NCBI RefSeq assembly: GCF_008107725.1
Contig: NZ_VIRN01000037.1
Span: 124,001 to 188,000, forward strand
Length of the DNA stretch: 64,000 nucleotides
Source: Marinobacter sp. BW6
GTDB lineage: Bacteria > Pseudomonadota > Gammaproteobacteria > Pseudomonadales > Oleiphilaceae
Reading direction: 5' to 3'
Below, piece by piece: positions 12,817 to 23,720 of this stretch. A model generated the notes under the pieces. The model searched no databases and had not been told where the DNA came from. It saw only the letters and a program-made list of their open reading frames with translations. Position numbers and translations under genes: made by a program. Within the stretch, counting starts at the first letter, position 1, and each line of letters opens with the position of its first letter.

Positions 12817-14025
12817 CTATTTCGACGGGGTGTTATCTGATCCGTTTATGGTATCAGTTACCGATACGATAGCGATATCGTCCGGAAGCTCTGTGATCTG
12901 TTCGAGATTGAGAGCTTCACCAAGGGAGGCGATAGTGTGACGACCTCCCGAAACGAGTTCAAGTAGTGTCCGCTCCTTTTCATCCAGCCCTTTTTCCCGG
13001 ATAACCTCCAGAATTCCATCCGAAAACAGCGTCAGATAGAAGGGTTTGTTCAGGGCTACTTCGTAAACCTCCCACTCCGGGGTCTCGAAAAGGCCCACCG
13101 GCAACCCACTGCCTTCGAGAAACGCCGTCTCTCCGCCCTCGAAGGACAGTATGGGCATTGGAAAGTGTGCCCCCACCGCATAATTTAACTTACGTTCGCT
13201 CAGGGAAATGATGCCGACGAAAACGGTTACGTGTTTGCCGAGGCCGGTATCCAGCAACTCCGAGTTGATTCGCTCCAGGAATCGGTCCGGATACAGGATG
13301 TCCTCACTCGAACCCCGGCGGAAGTTTCGCTGCAGCCGGTTGGTGAGGTTTTTCAGCAGTACCGTCACGAACGCAGAACTCGCGCCATGGCCCGAAACAT
13401 CGGCGATGTAGACCAGGACCTTGTCGTCGGAAATACGAAAGTAGTCCAGAAAATCACCGCTCAGATAGAGCGACGGTTTGATCATGTGATCCACGTGCAA
13501 GCCACTCATGACCTGCTCGTGTTCCGGCAGCATCCGTAGCTGGACTTTCCGGCCGGCGCGCTGATCCGCCCGTAGCTCGGCAATGCCATCCCGCAGATCC
13601 CGGTTGGCCTCTTCCAGCTCCTGCCGGTAAAGCTGGTTCAGCCGGTTAACCCGGACCCGGTCGAACAGTTTTCCGAGTACATCATCCAGCGCACCCTTGT
13701 CGTCGTTGCAGGGTTTCAGGACAAAATCCGCGGCCCCAGCCCTCAGGACACTGACCACATCGGCACTGGATTCACTCGATGAACAGGCTACGATGGGGGT
13801 GAAGGTTTCGGCTTCTTCGAGACGGTTGGCGAGGTCCCGGATGGCCTCCGGAGACAGATCTGCAAAAATGACGTCTGGAATGTTATCGTCAAAGAGCGCC
13901 TTGGCGCCCGCGAGATCCGGGTACCCGGTCACGTAGAATCCCCTCGCTTCAAGGTACCGGGCGAGATCCATACGGGACTTTTCATCGGCGTCTATTATAA
14001 GTATGCGCTCGGTGCGCGAGATCAT
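12817..14025 (-). CDS. rssB: response regulator with PP2C-type phosphatase output (RssB-like)
   Basis: A 402-residue protein. The N-terminal receiver domain (about residues 5-125) has acidic residues near Asp13, a phospho-acceptor in FADLSPE and the conserved lysine in FVLKP. A helical linker (about 130-175) leads to a SpoIIE/PP2C phosphatase domain (about 185-390), with metal ligands in SGDFLD and ADVSGHG and in LFSDG. Its partner RssC is encoded next. In Pseudomonas RssB acts in a partner-switching pathway that regulates RpoS; here the same architecture is visible, but the target is inferred. The ATG at 14025 has a poor ribosome site. Confidence 0.85.
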   Translation of the reverse strand: MISRTERILIIDADEKSRMDLARYLEARGFYVTGYPDLAGAKALFDDNIPDVIFADLSPEAIRDLANRLEEAETFTPIVACSSSESSADVVSVLRAGAADFVLKPCNDDKGALDDVLGKLFDRVRVNRLNQLYRQELEEANRDLRDGIAELRADQRAGRKVQLRMLPEHEQVMSGLHVDHMIKPSLYLSGDFLDYFRISDDKVLVYIADVSGHGASSAFVTVLLKNLTNRLQRNFRRGSSEDILYPDRFLERINSELLDTGLGKHVTVFVGIISLSERKLNYAVGAHFPMPILSFEGGETAFLEGSGLPVGLFETPEWEVYEVALNKPFYLTLFSDGILEVIREKGLDEKERTLLELVSGGRHTIASLGEALNLEQITELPDDIAIVSVTDTINGSDNTPSK

Positions 14026-14139
14026 GGCGACTGCCCTAAACTACCAGCGATAAACGATAAATTGGCATGATTAAGCCTATTCTGGCACGCCCCTGTGATA
14101 TAACAAGGCCAGTTTTATGAAATTGGGAGATTCCATCTG

Positions 14140-15624
14140 ATGCGACGTGCCGTTAACGATCTTCTCGGAGCCTATGACAAGTTGATCATGGATCCGGTTC
14201 ACGGAGGGATTCCACTTTACCGGCACGAAATCCAGGTGATCGATCACCCGCTGTTCCAGCGATTGCGTAACATCTGCCAGAACGACATCCTGAGCCTGGT
14301 TTTTCCCGGCGCGACCCATTCACGGTTCCTTCACAGTATCGGTGTTATGCACGTGGGCACCCGGATGTTCCGGTCCATGATTGATGCCTACCTGAGAGAG
14401 CGCCAGCTCAGTGAGCAGACGGACCTGAGCCTGAGCCAGCTCGACGCCATCGACTACCTGGCCAAAACCATCCGGCTGGGCTGCCTGCTGCACGACAGTG
14501 GCCATTCCAGCTTTTCCCATCAGTTCACCCAGGCCCGGCGTATACGGGAACTCATGTCGCGACCTGGCCGATTCAGCGACCTCTGGCGTGGCGTGGATTA
14601 TTCTGCCTATCACCCGGAAGAGCCCGAAGAACTGGAACATGAGCATTATTCTGTGCGTGTGGCTCACGATGTGCTTATGGCAGTGGATCTGGAGAGTGCC
14701 GGTCTCTACGCCCGGGATGTTATCGGCATCATGGAAACAACAGAAGTAAAGCCCAGCGAAACATTCTGTCGCCATGCCCGCACTTTCTGGGCATTCATTG
14801 CGGGCGAAGATGCCGCCGCGGGTTCACCTCTCAGCGACAACATCCCCGGGCTGGTAATGGACCTCCTGTCGTCCATTGTCTCCGGCGAGATCGATGCCGA
14901 CCGGGCCGACTACATGTTGCGCGATGGCTTCCACTCGTCGGTCACCATTGGCGGCTTCAACCTGGACCACCTGCTGAGTAACCTGCGCTTTGGTTGGGAT
15001 GTGTCTGAACCCTGGTTGGGGCTTGCCATCACTCAGAAAGGGCTGGGTGCGCTGGAAGACTTTGTTTACAGTCGCCACCAGATGTACCGGAAAGTCTATG
15101 CCCACAAGACAGCGCTTGGCTTTGACTGGCTGCTTCGGGAAGCGATCAACGAGGTCCTGGATGACCCGGAGAATTTCGAATGGGTGGATACCTGCCTGAG
15201 CGATATGGCCTATTTTGCAGAGCTCACCGACAACTTTTTCTGGGAGGCGTTCCGGAAAGTGGCGCGCAAGCACCCAAAGAGTTTTTCTTTCTGTATTGTG
15301 AACCGGGTGAAGCTGAACCACCTGGATACCCGGGAAGACCTTTCAGCCAGGAGTATTGAGCGGCACAGCACTTGGCTGGCCGGAGAGCTTTCCCTCAACC
15401 CGGCCCAGGTAGTGACCTGCTCCATGCGGGCACGGTTCTCCAACATCCAGGACAATTTCAACGGTATCAAGGTGCTGGTGCGCGAGCCCATTCACCGTAC
15501 CCGTTCGCTGAAGAAGATCACCGATGTGAGCGCCTTCTTCAGCAAGTTCAGTGACGGCACCATCACCCATTTCTACACCCGGCCCGATGTCACCACCGGC
15601 AGCCAGGAGTCTGTCACTGAGTAA
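14140..15624 (+). CDS. HD-domain phosphohydrolase (dNTPase-like, COG1078 type)
   Basis: A 494-residue HD-superfamily hydrolase. The N-terminal segment YDKLIMDPVHGGIPL is the family hallmark. Metal-site residues are visible: His60/His65 in THSRFLHS, the HD pair His118-Asp119 in LLHDSGHSSF and a further Asp in DADRADYMLRDG. Relatives hydrolyse dNTPs to nucleosides and triphosphate (SAMHD1/YwfO type), lowering dNTP pools. The substrate is not certain. It has GGGAG ten bases before ATG and is divergent from rssB, with 114 bp between. Its stop overlaps the next convergent gene by 11 bp. Confidence 0.85.
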   Translation: MRRAVNDLLGAYDKLIMDPVHGGIPLYRHEIQVIDHPLFQRLRNICQNDILSLVFPGATHSRFLHSIGVMHVGTRMFRSMIDAYLRERQLSEQTDLSLSQLDAIDYLAKTIRLGCLLHDSGHSSFSHQFTQARRIRELMSRPGRFSDLWRGVDYSAYHPEEPEELEHEHYSVRVAHDVLMAVDLESAGLYARDVIGIMETTEVKPSETFCRHARTFWAFIAGEDAAAGSPLSDNIPGLVMDLLSSIVSGEIDADRADYMLRDGFHSSVTIGGFNLDHLLSNLRFGWDVSEPWLGLAITQKGLGALEDFVYSRHQMYRKVYAHKTALGFDWLLREAINEVLDDPENFEWVDTCLSDMAYFAELTDNFFWEAFRKVARKHPKSFSFCIVNRVKLNHLDTREDLSARSIERHSTWLAGELSLNPAQVVTCSMRARFSNIQDNFNGIKVLVREPIHRTRSLKKITDVSAFFSKFSDGTITHFYTRPDVTTGSQESVTE

Positions 15625-16642
15625 CGGGAACCGCGTTGAGTTCGGCAATCAGTCCGCAGGCACTGTCGAAGGCACCCTCTACCCTGCCGCCACTAAGCCA
15701 GTCCCCTGCAAGCCCGATCTTGTAATCCGGGAACCATAGATGACCAGGGTGTTCTCCGCCTTCAGAGCGGGCATAGAGCCAGCGATGGCTAACAACTTCG
15801 TCCGGACCGGTATCGAAGCCGGTCGTTTCACGAAACGCAGCCAACAGTTTTTCGGCCACTTCCTCGGCTGGTGTATCCACATGGTCTTCGGTCCAGGCCG
15901 GGCTGGCGTGCAAAACCCACCACTGACCCTCATCGTCTCGACCGGGCTTGCTGGAGTTGTTGGCCACCCAGAACAGCGCCGGGTGCTTGCAGCGCATTCC
16001 TTCGTGATGCGGCCAGGGCGATACCTGGAAGTGGGCGGCAACGGCCCAGCATGGCAGGACCCGGCTAACCGGATCGTCAAGGTGGGAGGCAAGTTCGTGC
16101 AGACCGCTATCCGCCAGCAGTTCCCGGGCCTGTGCCGGCGGCGCGGTGATAATCACCCCATCAAAGTCGCCCAGGTGGTTGCCAGAGGTGTCCGAAATGC
16201 CCCAGGAATGGTCGTTTCGGGCCAAAATGCCGACCCGGGTTTCAGTGACAACCCGTGCATGTTCAGACAGTGCCCGGGTAATGGCGGTCATGCGCGGCGT
16301 ACCGACAAAACGGATTTCCTCAGGAAACGGCTCCCAATGACCGGTGCCCGTCTGGAAACCAAAACGGCCCTCCCACGGTCCAAAACTATCAGCGCCGGCA
16401 TATTTACGGAGAAAGGGAAGGAAATCCGGATTCCTGGAGGTGAAGTACTGTGCACCCACATCCGCTGATCCGCCGGTTACCCTTTTGGCCGCAAGTCTGC
16501 CACCCGGCCCCCGGCTCTTCTCAAATACAGTGACCTCATGCCCGAGGCCCTTCAGTTGAATAGCCGCGGTGAGCCCGGCGAGGCCTGAACCAACAATAGC
16601 GATACGGCGTATAAGAGGGAAATCAAAGGTTTGATTAAACAT
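15614..16642 (-). CDS. NAD(P)/FAD-dependent oxidoreductase, renalase-like
   Basis: A 342-residue flavoprotein with the dinucleotide motif IVGSGLAGLTAAIQL (residues 16-30), a second conserved GGRLAAKR loop (residues 47-54) and the C-terminal GLAGDWLSGGRVEGAF flavin-binding segment. This layout is that of renalase-like/amine-oxidase-type bacterial proteins, which oxidise dihydronicotinamide isomers in characterised cases. The function here is unproven. It diverges from the lipid-modification operon, leaving 116 bp between starts. A clear ribosome site is not visible before the ATG at 16642. Confidence 0.8.
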   Translation of the reverse strand: MFNQTFDFPLIRRIAIVGSGLAGLTAAIQLKGLGHEVTVFEKSRGPGGRLAAKRVTGGSADVGAQYFTSRNPDFLPFLRKYAGADSFGPWEGRFGFQTGTGHWEPFPEEIRFVGTPRMTAITRALSEHARVVTETRVGILARNDHSWGISDTSGNHLGDFDGVIITAPPAQARELLADSGLHELASHLDDPVSRVLPCWAVAAHFQVSPWPHHEGMRCKHPALFWVANNSSKPGRDDEGQWWVLHASPAWTEDHVDTPAEEVAEKLLAAFRETTGFDTGPDEVVSHRWLYARSEGGEHPGHLWFPDYKIGLAGDWLSGGRVEGAFDSACGLIAELNAVPVTQ

Positions 16643-16652
16643 GGTTTATCGT

Positions 16653-16679
16653 GCATCCAATTCCGGTAGTGAGATCGTA
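16653..16679 (+). promoter_or_regulatory. possible ECF-sigma promoter ahead of the lipid operon
   Basis: GCATCC (16653-16658) and CGTA (16676-16679) are 17 bp apart, loosely like the TGATCC/CGTA promoter of ChrR-controlled sigma-E. No better sigma-70 pair is visible between the renalase-like gene and the desaturase start. This is a weak match read by eye, and no rpoE/chrR genes are in the window. Confidence 0.25.
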
Positions 16680-16758: not shown

Positions 16759-17715
16759 ATGACCCGAATGCAGCATTGGCTAACAAACATTCTGAGGTGG
16801 TTCGACTCCGAGGCAGGTTCGGATCACATTGACACCACGTCCAGATCGTTCAACTTTTTACGGGTTATTCCGTTTATAGCACTTCACCTCGCGTGTCTGC
16901 TGGCTTTCTATACCGGCGTTAGCGCATTCGCCCTCGGGTTTGCGATCGCCTTTTTTCTCGTGCGCATGTTTGCGATTACCGGGTTTTACCACCGTTACTT
17001 CGCCCACAAGACTTTCAAAACCAGTCGCCCTGCGCAATTCGTGTTCGCAGTTCTCGGAGCCAGCGCCGCCCAGCGCGGTCCTCTATGGTGGGCGGCTCAT
17101 CACCGGCATCATCATCAGCACTCCGATGATGTTCAAGATCTGCACTCGCCCCATCAGGGTGGTTTCTGGTGGTCTCACATGGGCTGGTTCACCTGTGACG
17201 CCGGCTTCGCGACCGATGAGCGGCGGATTCGAGACTGGCTTAAATTCCCCGAGCTTAAACTGATCAACCGGTTCGATGCACTCGTGCCTGCTCTGGCAGC
17301 CGTCGGCATCTACGGCCTCGGCGAGGCGCTGGCGGCCTGGGCGCCAGGCCTGGGAACGAATGGGCTGCAACTGCTCGTGTGGGGCTTCTTTATCTCGACG
17401 GTGATGCTGTTTCACGCCACGGTCTCGATCAACTCGCTGTCCCACGTCTGGGGCAAGCGCCGATTCGAGACATCAGACGACAGCCGGAACAATTTCTGGC
17501 TGGCCCTTCTCACCCTTGGCGAAGGCTGGCACAACAACCATCACCGCTGGCCCCAGTCTGTGCGCCAGGGATTCCGGTGGTATGAAATTGACATCACCTG
17601 GTATGGCCTCTGGCTGATGTCAAAGCTTGGCATCATTTGGGAGCTGAACCCGATACCCAAGCATATTCAGAAAGAAACACGCGAACTGGACAGAATGAGG
17701 AGGAGCAGGCAATGA
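16759..17715 (+). CDS. fatty acid desaturase (acyl-CoA or acyl-lipid, delta-9 family)
   Basis: A 318-residue membrane desaturase with the three histidine boxes of the family: HRYFAH (residues 78-83), HHRHH-type box at 114-119 and HNNHH (258-262). Four hydrophobic stretches surround them. It introduces a double bond into saturated acyl chains, using oxygen and an electron carrier. The start is placed at ATG 16759 (MTRMQHW), after AAAGGG; the longer frame from 16651 adds a poorly conserved stretch. Its stop overlaps the next ATG (ATGA, 17712-17715), which begins an eight-gene operon. Confidence 0.88.
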   Translation: MTRMQHWLTNILRWFDSEAGSDHIDTTSRSFNFLRVIPFIALHLACLLAFYTGVSAFALGFAIAFFLVRMFAITGFYHRYFAHKTFKTSRPAQFVFAVLGASAAQRGPLWWAAHHRHHHQHSDDVQDLHSPHQGGFWWSHMGWFTCDAGFATDERRIRDWLKFPELKLINRFDALVPALAAVGIYGLGEALAAWAPGLGTNGLQLLVWGFFISTVMLFHATVSINSLSHVWGKRRFETSDDSRNNFWLALLTLGEGWHNNHHRWPQSVRQGFRWYEIDITWYGLWLMSKLGIIWELNPIPKHIQKETRELDRMRRSRQ

Positions 17716-18179
17716 CAACCGCCTCAAAAATCGAAGTAGGAGCGCGTAACTCGGCGGTTCCAGCAACGCTGGATAGTTTCCGGGCGCTGTTCAACGAGCT
17801 TGATAAAGGCAATCTCAACAAGCTGTCCCGGGTCTACAGCGAAGACATCCGATTTCAGGATCCTTTGGGCATCGTTAGCGGACTTGATGAGCTGACCCGC
17901 TATTTCGCTGATGCTTATGCGAACGTTATCTCCTGTCGCTTCGAGTTTGGTGACGCAGTTGTCCAGGGGGAGTTTGCTGCCGTGCCCTGGGTTATGCATT
18001 TGCGTCACAAGCGCATTCGCAAAGGCCGGGAAGTTCAGGTTCAGGGCATCAGCCACCTGGAGATCCGGAACGGCATGGTTTGCTATCACCGCGATTACTT
18101 TGACGCAGGAGAAATGCTCTATGAAAACCTGCCGGTGATTGGCAGGGCCATTCGCTGGATCAAGGACCAGGCAGGATGA
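17712..18179 (+). CDS. NTF2-like (SnoaL-fold) protein
   Basis: A 155-residue protein of the nuclear-transport-factor-2 fold: a helical N-terminus, then RVYSEDIRFQDPLG and a beta sheet ending YHRDYFDAGEMLYEN. The fold forms a cone-shaped pocket used for small hydrophobic ligands or as an enzyme. The start is ATG 17712, backed by AGGAGGAG at 17699-17706, and overlaps the desaturase stop. The downstream SDR gene overlaps its stop in ATGA. Similar NTF2-like genes lead the SDR-flavoprotein-DUF1365-Cfa clusters found in several proteobacteria, which I recall as linked to photo-oxidative stress. The specific role is unknown. Confidence 0.8.
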   Translation: MTTASKIEVGARNSAVPATLDSFRALFNELDKGNLNKLSRVYSEDIRFQDPLGIVSGLDELTRYFADAYANVISCRFEFGDAVVQGEFAAVPWVMHLRHKRIRKGREVQVQGISHLEIRNGMVCYHRDYFDAGEMLYENLPVIGRAIRWIKDQAG

Positions 18180-18976
18180 GTGATCGACTTCAGGAAACCT
18201 CGAATATCTGGATTACCGGCGCCAGTTCCGGCATTGGTGAATCCGTCACCCGCGCTCTGGCGCGCGGTGGTCACCGGCTCGTGATTACCGGCCGCCGTCA
18301 GGGGGCTCTGGAGGAACTGGCTTCAGCAGCGCCAGAACGGATTATACCGGCGGCGGCAGACACCACCAGCAAAGAAGACCTCCAGGCCATTGCTGGTACG
18401 CTGGAAAACCACGGCGACCTGAATATGGTGATACTGAACGCCGGCACCTGTGAATATCTTGAGATAGCGCGCTACAACAGCGACGTTATCGAGAAGAACA
18501 TTCACACCAACGTGATTGGTACGGCGCGATGTCTCGATATTGCTCTGCCTGCCCTCAGGCGTAGCCGGGCCAAAGGACAGCCGGCGACCCTCGTGATCGT
18601 CAGTTCTTCAGCTTGGTGGTTCCCCTTTGGTCGGGCTGAGGGTTACGGCGCTTCCAAGGCGGCCCTGACCTACTTTGCCCATGCCCTCCGGGCTGACCTT
18701 GCCGCCGAGGGGATCGACGTAGTGGTGGTTTCCCCCGGGTTCGTCAAGACACCATTGACCGACCGTAACGATTTTCCGATGCCCTTTCTCGTTTCCGCAG
18801 AGGATGCGGCGGAACGCATTGTCAGTGGCCTGGCGCGTGGCAAGAACGAGATCGCATTCCCCAAGCGTTTCACCTGGATGCTGAAAGCTCTGGGCGCCCT
18901 TCCCCGGCCCTTGATCGACCGTATGTCGGCCTCCATGGCCCGTAAAAGCAACACCAAACAGGAAAACAATGGATGA
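18176..18976 (+). CDS. short-chain dehydrogenase/reductase
   Basis: A 266-residue classical SDR. TGASSGIG is at residues 14-21 for cofactor binding, with NAG in MVILNAGT, the catalytic serines in VIVSSSA and the YGASK motif carrying the catalytic Tyr and Lys. NADP is the likely cofactor, since the loop after the first strand has Arg residues (GRRQG). The start overlaps the preceding stop by ATGA and its own stop overlaps the next ATG. The substrate is unknown; a fatty acyl or ketone intermediate fits the neighbouring genes. Confidence 0.88.
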   Translation: MSDRLQETSNIWITGASSGIGESVTRALARGGHRLVITGRRQGALEELASAAPERIIPAAADTTSKEDLQAIAGTLENHGDLNMVILNAGTCEYLEIARYNSDVIEKNIHTNVIGTARCLDIALPALRRSRAKGQPATLVIVSSSAWWFPFGRAEGYGASKAALTYFAHALRADLAAEGIDVVVVSPGFVKTPLTDRNDFPMPFLVSAEDAAERIVSGLARGKNEIAFPKRFTWMLKALGALPRPLIDRMSASMARKSNTKQENNG

Positions 18977-20238
18977 GTAGTGAGCGTCAGCGGATTGCTG
19001 TCATTGGGGCCGGCGTTTCCGGCCTCACGGCTGCCTGGCTTTTGGCCGAGAAACACGATGTTCAGGTTTTTGAAGCGGGCAACTATGCCGGCGGTCACAC
19101 CAATACCGAACAGGTCGAGGCTGGTGGCCGGACCTGGCCGGTAAATACCGGCTTCATCGTGTTCAACGACTGGACCTACCCGAATTTCATCAAACTGATG
19201 GAGCGGTTGGGAGTTCCGTCGGAAGTCAGCGACATGAGCTTCAGCGTGGACTGCAGCAGCACCGGCCTGCAGTACAACGGCACAAGTCTGAACACCCTGT
19301 TTGCCCAGCGAAAGAATCTGCTCAACCTGCCGTTCCTGAAGATGGTAAGGGAGATTCTGCGCTTTAACAAGGAAACCCGTGCAGACCTTGAAGCCGGCAA
19401 CATCAACAATGAAGAAACACTGGGGGAGTACCTGAACCGGAATGGGTACTCCCGCTATTTCAGGAATTACTACATTGTCCCCATGGGTGCGGCCATCTGG
19501 TCAGCGCCGGAGATCATTCTGGAACAGTTTCCAATCCGATTCTTTCTGCAGTTTTTTAACAATCACGGCATGCTGTCGGTGGATGACCGCCCTACGTGGC
19601 GGGTGATCTCCGGCGGTTCCGCCCAATACGTAAAAAAGATGATGGAACGCCTGGGCGATGCCACGCACCTGAACAGCCCCGTCGACAGGGTGGTCAGGGA
19701 TGAAACCGGCGTGACTGTCTCGGTAAAGGGCCAGGATCACCACTTCGACCAGGTGATTTTTGCGTGCCACAGTGATCAGGCGCTGGCCATGCTTGCAGAC
19801 CCGACCGACAAAGAGAAGGATGTTCTGGGTGCCATGGCGTACCAGAACAACGACGTAGTACTTCATACGGACAGCAGCGTGTTGCCGGACAACCGTCGTG
19901 CCTGGGCCGCCTGGAACTATTTCATTCCGACCCACAGCACGGAACCTGTCTCCGTCACCTACAACATGAATGTTTTGCAGAACTTCCACGACGCCCCGGA
20001 GACCTTCTGCGTGACGCTCAATCGAAGCCGCGATATCAATCCCGACATGGTAATCAAGCGCTTTGAGTACGCTCACCCGGTGTTCACCCTGGATGCGGTG
20101 GCCGCTCAGGAACGCTACGATGAAATCGGTAACCGCAACCGCACCCACTACTGTGGCGCCTATTGGTTCAACGGTTTCCACGAAGACGGAGTCCGAAGTG
20201 CGCTTCGGGTAACCCGGGCCTTCGGGGTGGAGCTTTGA
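18973..20238 (+). CDS. FAD-dependent oxidoreductase (amine-oxidase/desaturase-like, COG2907 type)
   Basis: A 421-residue flavoprotein opening with the dinucleotide motif IGAGVSGLTAAWLL (residues 10-23) and a GGHTNT loop. Internal NTGFIVFND and YIVPMGAAIWS match the COG2907 family, related to phytoene desaturase and amine oxidases. In furan-fatty-acid and methyl-branched-lipid pathways, a flavin enzyme of this kind works after the Cfa-like methylase, either desaturating or reducing the methylated chain. That role is proposed here by context. It overlaps the SDR by four bases and is followed by DUF1365 after two bases. Confidence 0.82.
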   Translation: MSSERQRIAVIGAGVSGLTAAWLLAEKHDVQVFEAGNYAGGHTNTEQVEAGGRTWPVNTGFIVFNDWTYPNFIKLMERLGVPSEVSDMSFSVDCSSTGLQYNGTSLNTLFAQRKNLLNLPFLKMVREILRFNKETRADLEAGNINNEETLGEYLNRNGYSRYFRNYYIVPMGAAIWSAPEIILEQFPIRFFLQFFNNHGMLSVDDRPTWRVISGGSAQYVKKMMERLGDATHLNSPVDRVVRDETGVTVSVKGQDHHFDQVIFACHSDQALAMLADPTDKEKDVLGAMAYQNNDVVLHTDSSVLPDNRRAWAAWNYFIPTHSTEPVSVTYNMNVLQNFHDAPETFCVTLNRSRDINPDMVIKRFEYAHPVFTLDAVAAQERYDEIGNRNRTHYCGAYWFNGFHEDGVRSALRVTRAFGVEL

Positions 20239-20240
20239 CC

Positions 20241-21125
20241 GTGAACAGCCAGTGGCTGGAGGGTACTGTCCGGCACAGGCGGAAGTACCCGGTGCAACAC
20301 GAATTCAGCTACAGCACCGGCATGCTGGCCCTCGACACCGACGAGTGGAATCAGGTTTCCAGTATCAGCCCGTTATTTTCCCTGGAACGGTTCAACTGGA
20401 TGTCTCTGAAGCGCAGGGATTACTTCCGGCCGGAGACAGGCGACCTGTCTGGCGCTTTGCGTGACCACGTGGAACAGGCCACCGGCTGGCGCCCGGATGG
20501 TGAAGTCGAGCTGATTACCCATCCGCGTTACTTTGGTTACGTGTTCAATCCGGTCAGCTTCTACTTCTGCTATCGCGCCGGGGCATGCCCGGCGGATGGT
20601 GTGGTTCCAAAGGTCATCGTGGCCGAGATTACCAACACACCCTGGCATGACCGTCATGCCTATTGCCTGGAGACGACGGGTGCAGAGCCCAACGAGGCGG
20701 GCTGGCGCACCGAACAGTTTGGTTTCAGCAAACGCTTTCATGTGTCGCCTTTCAACGGCATGAACCAGCATTACGAATGGACATTCAGTTTCAGGGGCCC
20801 TGATCTCAGAATTCACATGAATGTTCTGGAAGAAGGTCGCAAGCATTTTGACGCCACTCTGGTAGTCCAACGTACCCCTCTCACTCGTAAAGATGTGCAT
20901 AGAAGTCTTCGAAAGTTTCCGCTTGAAGCATTCAAGGTTGTGGCAGGCATCTACTGGCACGCCCTCCGTCTCAAGCTCAAGGGGGCACCGTTCTACACCC
21001 ACCCCGACAAGCTTTCCGAGGACGATACCGCCTACCGCCGTGGGCACGATGATTCCGGGCTGGATGTCACCAGCTCCGAGACCAATGACAAGATTCGTGG
21101 AAGGGTAAGTTCATGGAGAACCTGA
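20241..21125 (+). CDS. DUF1365 family protein
   Basis: A 294-residue DUF1365 protein: GTVRHRRKYPVQHEFSY near the start and the hallmark HPRYFGYVFNPVSFYFCYR-like block around residues 95-115. The function is unknown, but the gene is almost always beside a flavin oxidoreductase and a Cfa-like methyltransferase. The start is GTG 20241, with GGAG (20229-20232) eight bases before it. A TTG at 20235 is too close to that site. The next gene begins 13 bp before its stop. Confidence 0.88.
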   Translation: MNSQWLEGTVRHRRKYPVQHEFSYSTGMLALDTDEWNQVSSISPLFSLERFNWMSLKRRDYFRPETGDLSGALRDHVEQATGWRPDGEVELITHPRYFGYVFNPVSFYFCYRAGACPADGVVPKVIVAEITNTPWHDRHAYCLETTGAEPNEAGWRTEQFGFSKRFHVSPFNGMNQHYEWTFSFRGPDLRIHMNVLEEGRKHFDATLVVQRTPLTRKDVHRSLRKFPLEAFKVVAGIYWHALRLKLKGAPFYTHPDKLSEDDTAYRRGHDDSGLDVTSSETNDKIRGRVSSWRT

Positions 21126-22387
21126 ATACTTCGGTTGCAAATACCAACTCCGGCTCAAGTAGCTTACCGGCCATCAGCCGGTTTGCGAGAACCCTGGTGA
21201 TTCAGCAGCTCCGGTTACTGGGCGAAGGCCAGCTAACGGTAAGGGAATCCGGATATGAAGACCTTGTGTTCGGAGACGGCAATAGCCAATTTCAACCTGC
21301 CGAATTGATTGTCCACGATCACAGTACCTGGCGGGACCTTCTGACCGGCGGCAGTGTTGGCGCGGCCGAGGCATATGTGGCCGGTGATTGGTCGACGCCG
21401 GATCTGGTTGCCCTGCTCCGGTTCTTTACCCGTAACGTTGACCGCATGAACGAGTTTGAAGACCGATTCAGCTGGGTTACCAAGCCGGCGCTGAAAGGTT
21501 TGCACTGGCTGAACCGGAACACCAAAGAAGGGTCTCGGAAGAACATCAGTGCCCATTACGACCTGGGCAACGACCTGTTCGAGACTTTTCTCGACCCGAC
21601 CATGATGTATTCTTCGGCCATCTACCCGAGTACCGATTCAACGCTCGAAGAAGCCGCAGTTCACAAGCTTGACACCATTTGCCGGAAACTTGATCTCCAA
21701 CCCGGCGACAAGGTGATTGAAATCGGCACTGGCTGGGGCGGTTTTGCGGTTCACGCTGCCAAACATTATGGCTGTCATGTAACCACCACGACCATTTCCA
21801 GAGAACAGTTGGAGTTGGCCAGAGAGCGGGTTCAGAACGAGGGTCTGGAAGACCGTATTACCCTCCTGTTTGACGATTACCGGGACCTTGAGGGCCAGTT
21901 CGACAAACTGGTCTCCATCGAGATGATCGAAGCGGTCGGTCCACAGTTCCTGGACAGCTACTTCTCCCAGATTAACGCTCTGCTCAAGCCGGATGGCCTG
22001 GCGCTTGTGCAGGCCATCAACATGCCAGAACAGCGTTACCAGCGGGCCCTGAAGAACGTGGACTTTATTCAGCGCTTCATATTCCCGGGTAGTTTTATTC
22101 CATCCTTCGGGGCGATCCTGGAGTCGGTTCGCAAAGAAAGCAAACTGGTGCTGACCCATACCGAAGACAGCGGCTTCCATTACGCCCGTACGCTTCGGGA
22201 CTGGTGCGACCGGTTCATGGCCCAGCGGGATAAGCTGGAGGCGATGGGTTATGACCAGGCATTCCGGCGCCTGTGGCACTTTTACTTTGCCTACTGTGAA
22301 GCCGGCTTCAGCGAGCGTGCCATTGGCGTGGCGCAGCTGGTGTTCGCCAAGCCCGGCAACAAACGCGAGAATATTCTGAGCGTATGA
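21113..22387 (+). CDS. cyclopropane-fatty-acyl-phospholipid synthase-like methyltransferase
   Basis: A 424-residue Cfa-family methyltransferase: HYDLGNDLFETFLDP (about 148-162), SAM motif EIGTGWGGF (203-211) and EMIEAVG (270-276). E. coli Cfa uses a bicarbonate held partly by Cys139 (in YSC) and His266 (in LLHTI). The matching places here look like Ser168 (YSSA) and Gln300 (LVQAI), while the Glu of the EHVG motif is kept as Glu273. That suggests a C-methyltransferase making a methyl- or methylene-branched chain rather than a cyclopropane, like BfaB or UfaM; this is inference from alignment by eye. It is co-transcribed with DUF1365 and DUF2878. Confidence 0.85.
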   Translation: MENLNTSVANTNSGSSSLPAISRFARTLVIQQLRLLGEGQLTVRESGYEDLVFGDGNSQFQPAELIVHDHSTWRDLLTGGSVGAAEAYVAGDWSTPDLVALLRFFTRNVDRMNEFEDRFSWVTKPALKGLHWLNRNTKEGSRKNISAHYDLGNDLFETFLDPTMMYSSAIYPSTDSTLEEAAVHKLDTICRKLDLQPGDKVIEIGTGWGGFAVHAAKHYGCHVTTTTISREQLELARERVQNEGLEDRITLLFDDYRDLEGQFDKLVSIEMIEAVGPQFLDSYFSQINALLKPDGLALVQAINMPEQRYQRALKNVDFIQRFIFPGSFIPSFGAILESVRKESKLVLTHTEDSGFHYARTLRDWCDRFMAQRDKLEAMGYDQAFRRLWHFYFAYCEAGFSERAIGVAQLVFAKPGNKRENILSV

Positions 22388-22905
22388 TTCCGTCAGAAAC
22401 CACCCGTAACGTACTGAACTTCCTTCTATTTCAAGCTGGCTGGTTCGCCTGTGTGTTTTACCCGAGTCTGTTCGGTGCCGGTATCGTGGTGGTGTTTCTG
22501 GTGCTGCATTTTGTCTTGGTCAGCCAGAGCCGGATGACCGAATTGCAGTTCATCGGCCTCGGCACCGTGGTTGGCTCCATTCTGGACGGCATCTGGTTCC
22601 GTACCGGGATTCTGGACGACGGTACAGGCCAGGTGATGCTGACGCCACCGTGGCTGGTGGCGATCTGGGCCATCTTCATGACGACACTGAGCCACTCTCT
22701 GGACTGGATCAGCAAAAAAGCCTGGCTGCCGTTCGTGCTTGCGCCCTTCGCCGGCCCATTCGCGTACTGGTCGGCGAGCCAGCTCGGTGCAGTGCAGCTG
22801 CCGGAACTGGTGCCGTCACTGATTGCGCTCGGACTCGGCTGGCTGATTGTTTTCCCATTGCTTTTGTTCGCCCGTAAAAAGCTTTATCCGGAGCTGGTGC
22901 GATGA
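22384..22905 (+). CDS. DUF2878 family membrane protein
   Basis: A 173-residue membrane protein with about five or six hydrophobic helices, matching DUF2878. The segment IGLGTVVGSILDGIWFRTGIL (about residues 57-77) shows the typical charged residues within helices. The function is not known; it regularly sits in the SDR/flavoprotein/DUF1365/Cfa clusters, so it may carry or position lipids. ATG overlaps the methyltransferase stop (ATGA), and its own end overlaps the next start. Confidence 0.82.
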   Translation: MIPSETTRNVLNFLLFQAGWFACVFYPSLFGAGIVVVFLVLHFVLVSQSRMTELQFIGLGTVVGSILDGIWFRTGILDDGTGQVMLTPPWLVAIWAIFMTTLSHSLDWISKKAWLPFVLAPFAGPFAYWSASQLGAVQLPELVPSLIALGLGWLIVFPLLLFARKKLYPELVR

Positions 22906-23642
22906 AAAACACGATTGCACTTGTTCCCTTTGCCTTGATGGCAGCATCCCTGTCGGCATTGGCGCAGGATCTTCGCTTTACCGGAATTGCGACCACCGCC
23001 GATGGCAGAGAGATCTACGAGGAACGCCACTCGGTTGACGGAACCTGTCAGGAGGGCGTGTTTCGGCCCCGGCAACACGGGGTGACCTACTTCAAACCGG
23101 ACGCGGACGAGTCGTTCGCCCGCAAGGGCCTTGAATACGAGGCTTCAGCACTGCGTCCGTCCGTAGACTTTGTTCAGCCGACATTCAATGAAGAGATGAA
23201 GATCACCTACCCTGCACCGGACACTTTGGTGATTGACTGGCAGACGCCCGGCGGCGATTCAGAGCGATTCGAGGTGACATACCCGGCCAACACCGTTGTG
23301 GATGCCGGGTTCGATAATTTCGTCCGTCAGAACTGGCAGAGTGTTGTGGTCGGCGAGCCGGTTGAATTCCGGTTTCTCGGGCCTACCCGGGGCGAGCATT
23401 ATGGCTTCGTGCTGGAACGGGTCGAGAACGACCGGGTGAATGCCGACCATGTGGTACAGATACGCCCGACAGGCATGGTGCTGAGATTCCTGGTGGATCC
23501 CATTGTATTGGGTTACAACGACGCTGGCGCCCTCTCCGATTATCTCGGCCTGACCAATATCCGAAAAAACCAGGACGAGAACTACACCGCTCATATCCGC
23601 TATTCCGTGGATACCTACCCGGATTGTGAACTGACCCCCTGA
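22902..23642 (+). CDS. exported protein of unknown function, 246 aa
   Basis: A signal peptide is evident: MKN start, a hydrophobic core (residues 5-18) and a cleavage site after SALA before QDLRF. The mature part, about 225 residues, is beta-rich and acidic, with no motif I recognise. It ends the eight-gene operon, overlapping the DUF2878 stop by ATGA. A periplasmic lipid-handling or sensing role would fit but is not shown. Two Cys (about residues 48 and 242) may form a disulfide. Confidence 0.75.
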   Translation: MKNTIALVPFALMAASLSALAQDLRFTGIATTADGREIYEERHSVDGTCQEGVFRPRQHGVTYFKPDADESFARKGLEYEASALRPSVDFVQPTFNEEMKITYPAPDTLVIDWQTPGGDSERFEVTYPANTVVDAGFDNFVRQNWQSVVVGEPVEFRFLGPTRGEHYGFVLERVENDRVNADHVVQIRPTGMVLRFLVDPIVLGYNDAGALSDYLGLTNIRKNQDENYTAHIRYSVDTYPDCELTP

Positions 23643-23688: not shown

Positions 23689-23720
23689 CTCCGGCAGGAA
23701 TTAACGCCGGAGATTTTTTT
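23689..23720 (+). terminator. hairpin with T-tail between the lipid operon and xthA
   Basis: CTCCGGC (23689-23695) pairs with GCCGGAG (23706-23712) and is followed by T7 at 23714-23720. It would end the operon. The right arm also contains the only GGAG that could serve as xthA ribosome site. Confidence 0.65.

Follow-up and report, generated by a model that had tools for sequence, protein, structure and literature searches.

An eight-gene operon of Marinobacter sp. BW6 is a probable furan fatty acid cassette of the sigma-E/ChrR regulon

Introduction

Which lipid is made by an operon that joins a membrane desaturase to a cyclopropane synthase-like methyltransferase, and what switches it on? The question is raised by a 64,000-nucleotide stretch of the Marinobacter sp. 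BW6 genome (contig NZ_VIRN01000037.1, positions 124,001 to 188,000; hereafter the window), in which eight co-directional plus-strand genes fill positions 16759-23642 according to open reading frames and Pfam domains. An initial annotation described these as tightly packed genes of one transcript, akin to ChrR/sigma-E and furan fatty acid gene clusters, that may make a branched or furan-type lipid. Furan acids scavenge radicals and are known to be produced by other marine gammaproteobacteria (PMC3528120). The operon is probably a cassette for antioxidant furan fatty acids (FuFAs), made from membrane fatty acids, and belongs to the regulon of an oxidation-sensing sigma factor, sigma-E/ChrR (ECF11). 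The arrangement is ordinary for the genus Marinobacter and the furan pathway is already known; it was elucidated in two alphaproteobacteria, with some work in Halomonas, and is here extended to marine Marinobacter with a regulatory link.

The operon and its probable product

Pfam matches and gene junctions agree with the eight-gene layout and its domains, the signal-like start of the last, exported protein being judged by eye, and a single transcription unit is likewise supported. The junctions are, in order, -4, -4, -4, +2, -13, -4 and -4 bases, so that five of the seven are four-base overlaps. At the centre are a UfaD-like flavoprotein desaturase (18973..20238, PF01593, 1.3e-27), a UfaO-like DUF1365 protein (20241..21125, PF07103, 2.2e-76), whose corrected start is best placed at the GTG at 20241, and a UfaM-like S-adenosylmethionine-dependent acyl methyltransferase (21113..22387, PF02353 (CMAS), 1.4e-83), side by side as in a furan cassette. 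The proposed kinship with furan fatty acid and ChrR/sigma-E clusters is supported. The best named matches of the DUF1365 protein are Marinobacter records. Its AlphaFold2 model, predicted with confidence (predicted local distance difference test, pLDDT, 92.1), shows a barrel and a long helix; the best weak structural matches of this model include heme-binding nitrobindins, which may be a lead for the UfaO cofactor.

In Rhodobacter sphaeroides and Rhodopseudomonas palustris, UfaM, UfaD and UfaO convert phospholipid cis-vaccenate to the furan acid by way of a methylated trans-monoene and then a methyl-diene (PMC7380195). By analogy with these proteins, UfaM would methylate the cis double bond of a phospholipid acyl chain, leaving a shifted trans double bond, UfaD would introduce a conjugated double bond, and UfaO would insert an O2-derived oxygen, closing the methylfuran ring. 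Released sigma-E would start one transcript at a GCATCC-N17-CGTA site, and an SCD-like desaturase would most likely set the first cis double bond in saturated chains, giving substrate on demand. The exported LolA-like protein, the DUF2878 protein, the NTF2-like protein and the short-chain dehydrogenase (SDR) would be accessory.

The methyltransferase could instead be an ordinary Cfa synthase whose neighbours tune membrane lipids, making this a cyclopropane fatty acid (CFA) operon. It has the CMAS domain, and its best PDB match is a cyclopropane synthase (6bqc, 2e-58). The authors of a Stenotrophomonas maltophilia study name both CMAS proteins of a related operon CFA synthases (PMC11832516), and cyclic acids also arose with Halomonas ufaM in Escherichia coli, so that a side activity is conceivable (PMC12089945). 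However, an alignment of 103 cassette methyltransferases, the window included, argues against this reading. The bicarbonate ligands of E. coli Cfa (Cys139, Glu239, His266, Ile268 and Tyr317) are partly changed: the His266 position is Gln and the residue after Glu239 (the His240 position) is Ala in all 103 sequences, and at the Cys139 position 88 sequences have Ser, 8 Cys, 6 Ala and 1 Asn. Glu239 and Tyr317 are retained throughout. The window protein, with Ser and Gln at the Cys139 and His266 positions, lacks these two ligands, and the genome already holds a separate full-length CMAS protein (L009:9417-10730, 36% identical) that retains the Cys and His. DUF1365 and the UfaD-type flavoprotein are not known to have a place in cyclopropane synthesis, and overall a cyclopropane operon appears improbable.

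Besides ufaM and this one Cfa-type gene, the genome holds only two CMAS matches of 31 bits, and a dimethyl furan product is not expected here, though conceivable. The Cfa-type gene is followed, with one base shared, by a FAD_binding_3 flavoprotein gene (L009:8293-10730). Elsewhere, a second, distant CMAS protein lies near ufaM in many desaturase-bearing cassettes (L111-L168; about 100 bits with the UfaM profile); in L159 it spans 13104-14402 and matches PF02353 with 128 bits. Possibly this protein is a FufM-like enzyme that leads to dimethyl furan acids.

A third candidate product is a methyl-branched saturated acid of the tuberculostearic type, for which methyltransferase and flavoprotein are paired as in BfaB and BfaA. 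BfaA is a flavoprotein of the FAD_binding_4 type, whereas the window flavoprotein matches PF01593/NAD_binding_8 and has no FAD_binding_4 match up to E 0.01, so the tuberculostearic type is not favoured. The presence of DUF1365 in the operon also counts against it, and we regard it as very improbable. Of the branched or furan-type lipids originally suggested, the furan type is the likely product.

Promoter and regulator

The ECF11 promoter is TGATCC-N16-CGTA in Pseudomonas syringae (PMC5507510) and TGATC-N16-18-CGTAW in Vibrio cholerae (PMC5241685), and, according to a review, furan acid genes are among those of the core ECF11 regulon in both alpha- and gammaproteobacteria (PMC6852236). A candidate promoter of this sigma-E/ChrR type, GCATCC-N17-CGTA, which is a variant of TGATCC-N16-CGTA, lies on the plus strand at 16653..16679, upstream of the desaturase gene, and is conserved in Marinobacter. 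Sites were counted as TGATCC or G/ACATCC, N15-17 and CGTA, at most 200 bases from the desaturase start. Such sites are found in 30 of 35 Marinobacter loci or, as four loci repeat a genome, in 26 of 31 distinct genomes (21 GCATCC-N17, 1 ACATCC-N17, 2 GCATCC-N16 and 2 TGATCC-N16), where 0.05 of the 35 loci would be expected by chance (mean of base-content shuffles). The control genes xth and HD have a site in 0 of 35 loci each. In other taxa, 33 of 60 loci have one (0.075 expected), as do 3 of 13 loci from the other genera of the family.

The GCATCC form also precedes rpoE itself. Upstream of 43 rpoE-profile matches, 12 have TGATCC-N15-17-CGTA, 12 the GCATCC equivalent and 19 neither. The 12 GCATCC cases comprise nine named records of the order Xanthomonadales, two other or metagenome-assembled genome (MAG) loci with the same gene order, and one same-order genome. 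GCATCC is thus a natural variant of the ECF11 promoter. Over the whole genome GCATCC-N15-17-CGTA occurs 22 times, against 9 for the reversed control, so a lone site means little and the weight comes from its conservation.

The absence of rpoE and chrR nearby, noted in the initial annotation, is true of the window, but the pair is present elsewhere in the genome (contig C88). Its ChrR scores 145.8 bits with TIGR02451 (cut-off 124.5) and has the cupin domain PF12973 and an HxxxCxxC motif; the protein encoded directly upstream has Sigma70_r2 and Sigma70_r4 domains, and a perfect TGATCC-N16-CGTA precedes this rpoE (L008:8460). With the operon situated 140 kb into contig C34, and provided that the contigs are correct, the distance to the pair is no less than about 140 kb. 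In L037-L040, four loci from three related genera, rpoE-chrR is divergent and 1.3, 2.9, 2.0 and 5.7 kb from the desaturase, with a flavoprotein gene in between in three of them. A 230-residue frame at C56:114406-114972 (L002, L003, L011) weakly resembles ChrR, with two matches of 28.6 and 25.2 bits.

Among 151 genomes drawn from the family, DUF1365 is found in 139, the desaturase in 140 and ChrR in 141 (139 above the curated cut-off). UfaO and ChrR (E <= 1e-12) occur together in 137 genomes, are both missing in 8 and occur singly in 6; ufaO and the desaturase occur together in 138, are both missing in 10 and occur singly in 3. G113, G129 and G141 lack ufaO, desaturase and ChrR matches all together.

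The desaturase and the history of the cassette

The first gene (16759..17715; PF00487, 1.2e-22) encodes a membrane fatty-acid desaturase that is SCD1-like. Its best structural-database match is PDB 4ymk (1.5e-25) and, with this similarity and three His boxes (HRYFAH, HHRHHH and HNNHH), it is of the SCD type. Nine other loci, two of them planctomycete MAGs, have cassette desaturases that share 50-56% identity with it, against only 15-25% for the genome's four other PF00487 proteins.

The desaturase and the exported protein had been taken as additions that make this version of the cassette unusual. This view is not supported: in 26 of 29 family loci, selected from the genomes with matches so as to be diverse, all eight genes are present in identical order, and both proteins have orthologues in a sigma-E/ChrR operon of S. 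maltophilia (PMC11832516). In loci L041 and L042 the order is desaturase-ufaD-ufaO-ufaM, and a second CMAS protein is encoded as well. Two loci of the Marinobacter group are reduced: L031 (G071) has lost the SDR, ufaD and ufaO genes and retains the desaturase and ufaM, and L233 (G074) has a short ufaD frame and no desaturase, DUF2878 or exported gene.

A FastTree phylogeny of UfaD, UfaO and UfaM from 103 of 104 loci places the desaturase-bearing cassettes in one clade, in which seven members have no desaturase; one of these seven is truncated where its contig stops. The neighbours of this clade are cassettes of same-order genomes that have the NTF2-like, SDR and exported genes and no desaturase. 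On this one tree, a single gain of the desaturase with a few losses since looks the simplest account.

We tentatively propose, as a reading somewhat less likely than not, that bacterial furan lipid synthesis here has the desaturase as its own dedicated first enzyme, which an ancestral cassette gained a single time and which then travelled with it into several phyla. It would place a cis bond on membrane lipids on demand, freeing the pathway from FabA-type synthesis, and the ring position or chain length may differ from that of 9M5-FuFA. A desaturase-headed furan cassette was not found described in the passages of literature searched, which included few subscription papers. An alternative, which we consider not very likely, is that the desaturase is a general Delta-9 membrane-fluidity enzyme that merely shares the promoter, the same furan acid being made without it. 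The SCD1-like sequence and the presence of FabA would suit such an enzyme. So would an even draw across the phylum, in which 89 of 299 genomes are positive: among 20 regions fetched, the desaturase is found in 3 and the cassette stands without it in 17 (the NTF2-like and SDR pair is beside ufaD in 11, and the exported protein is found in 5). On the other hand, four further PF00487 proteins are encoded in the genome, one of which has similar His boxes, and the desaturase is absent from 10 of the 12 family genomes without ufaO. Among 62 named loci with DUF1365 matches outside 18 Marinobacter records, in which close relatives are over-represented, the desaturase stands beside the cassette in 57 and the exported protein in 9. 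Furthermore, FabA genomes hold 11 of 12 desaturase-free but 15 of 29 desaturase-bearing cassettes (p = 0.03; counting two near-threshold genomes as FabA gives 0.06).

Several points weigh against the main reading of a furan cassette in the sigma-E/ChrR regulon. FabA is present in this genome, so the desaturase is not required merely to supply cis-monoenes. The promoter site is missing in 5 of 31 Marinobacter genomes and in 10 of 13 loci of the family's other genera, and the genome counts are not phylogenetically independent. Marinobacter genomes G082 and G144 keep the operon and its site with no ChrR match and a best rpoE of 28-30% identity, which weighs against exclusive control by sigma-E/ChrR. 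The S. maltophilia system affected tolerance of superoxide, not of singlet oxygen (PMC11832516). Finally, the kinship to R. sphaeroides UfaM, UfaD and UfaO is read from protein families, gene order and a residue signature, and the furan product and joint transcript are predicted here from the genes.

Accessory genes and flanking features

The second and third genes encode a SnoaL_2/NTF2-like protein (17712..18179; PF12680, 1.9e-19) and the SDR (18176..18976; PF00106, 1.1e-35), which has the position of PSPTO_1119, the RSP1087 counterpart (PMC5507510 Table 2). Downstream of ufaM are a DUF2878 membrane protein (22384..22905; PF11086, 4.6e-36) and the exported protein (22902..23642), whose start resembles a signal peptide by eye. 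The latter has no Pfam or NCBIfam match up to E 0.01; a LolA/DUF1849-like fold is predicted, from which a role in periplasmic lipid handling may be guessed.

An inverted repeat followed by a T-run at 23689..23720 (plus strand), between the last gene and xth, is the likely operon terminator. It was found with our own pattern, and a general scan omits it because its 10-base loop falls outside the limits of the scan. On the other side, a divergent flavoprotein gene (Amino_oxidase, 342 aa) on the minus strand at 15614-16642 shares the promoter region of the operon. Such a gene is found in 14 of 16 Marinobacter loci (L016-L031), and was not found in L029 and L030, whose two genomes have neither a ChrR match nor a close rpoE.

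Comparison with known systems

In its core the window operon matches R. palustris RPA2571-2569, which has the same ufaD-ufaO-ufaM families in the same order, the flavoprotein gene likewise adjoining the DUF1365 and CMAS genes (PMC7380195). R. sphaeroides RSP1091-1087 has the sigma-E/ChrR link in common with it; however, ufaM (RSP2144) sits apart, and RSP1087-1089 are dispensable for the furan acid (PMC7380195). A membrane desaturase, present in the window, is not reported for either species in the available text of that paper (PMC7380195). In Halomonas sp. YLGW01, ufaM, ufaD and ufaO are consecutive, as in the window, and its UfaM gives 11-methyloctadec-12-enoate in E. coli (PMC12089945). P. 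syringae PSPTO_1121-1114 has consecutive genes for an SDR, a flavoprotein, an RSP1090 homologue and cfa (PSPTO_1119-1116) and an ECF11 promoter; it differs in being headed by phrB, and the main text of its description does not contain the word desaturase (PMC5507510).

In S. maltophilia, a nine-gene operon, smlt2375-2367, is divergent from rpoEc-chrR-chrA and encodes, in order, a periplasmic protein, an acyl-CoA desaturase, an FAD oxidoreductase, a hypothetical protein, a CFA synthase, two membrane proteins, a second CFA synthase and a lipocalin (PMC11832516). Expression of its genes rises 165-697 fold when chrR is mutated and drops again when rpoEc is missing, in RNA-seq done once (PMC11832516). 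The corresponding locus of strain LMG 978 (L159) is 59% identical to the window in the desaturase, 45% in ufaD, 47% in ufaO, 49% in ufaM, 29% in the exported protein and 27% in DUF2878, and the matched genes are followed by the second CMAS protein and lipocalin. The two systems share GCATCC sites (N16-CGTA in L159), and control by sigma-E/ChrR was measured in S. maltophilia (PMC11832516). They differ in that the S. maltophilia operon begins with the exported gene, has the extra second CMAS protein and lipocalin and lies adjacent to rpoE-chrR, and NTF2-like and SDR genes are not annotated in its published description (PMC11832516). The word furan is absent from that paper (PMC11832516). The present reading predicts that the S. 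maltophilia sigma-E operon makes furan lipids, and it singles out two test targets, the desaturase and the as yet unnamed family of the exported protein. If the dedicated-desaturase reading is true, the S. maltophilia operon, now read as one for cyclopropane synthesis, would be a furan lipid operon like that of Marinobacter.

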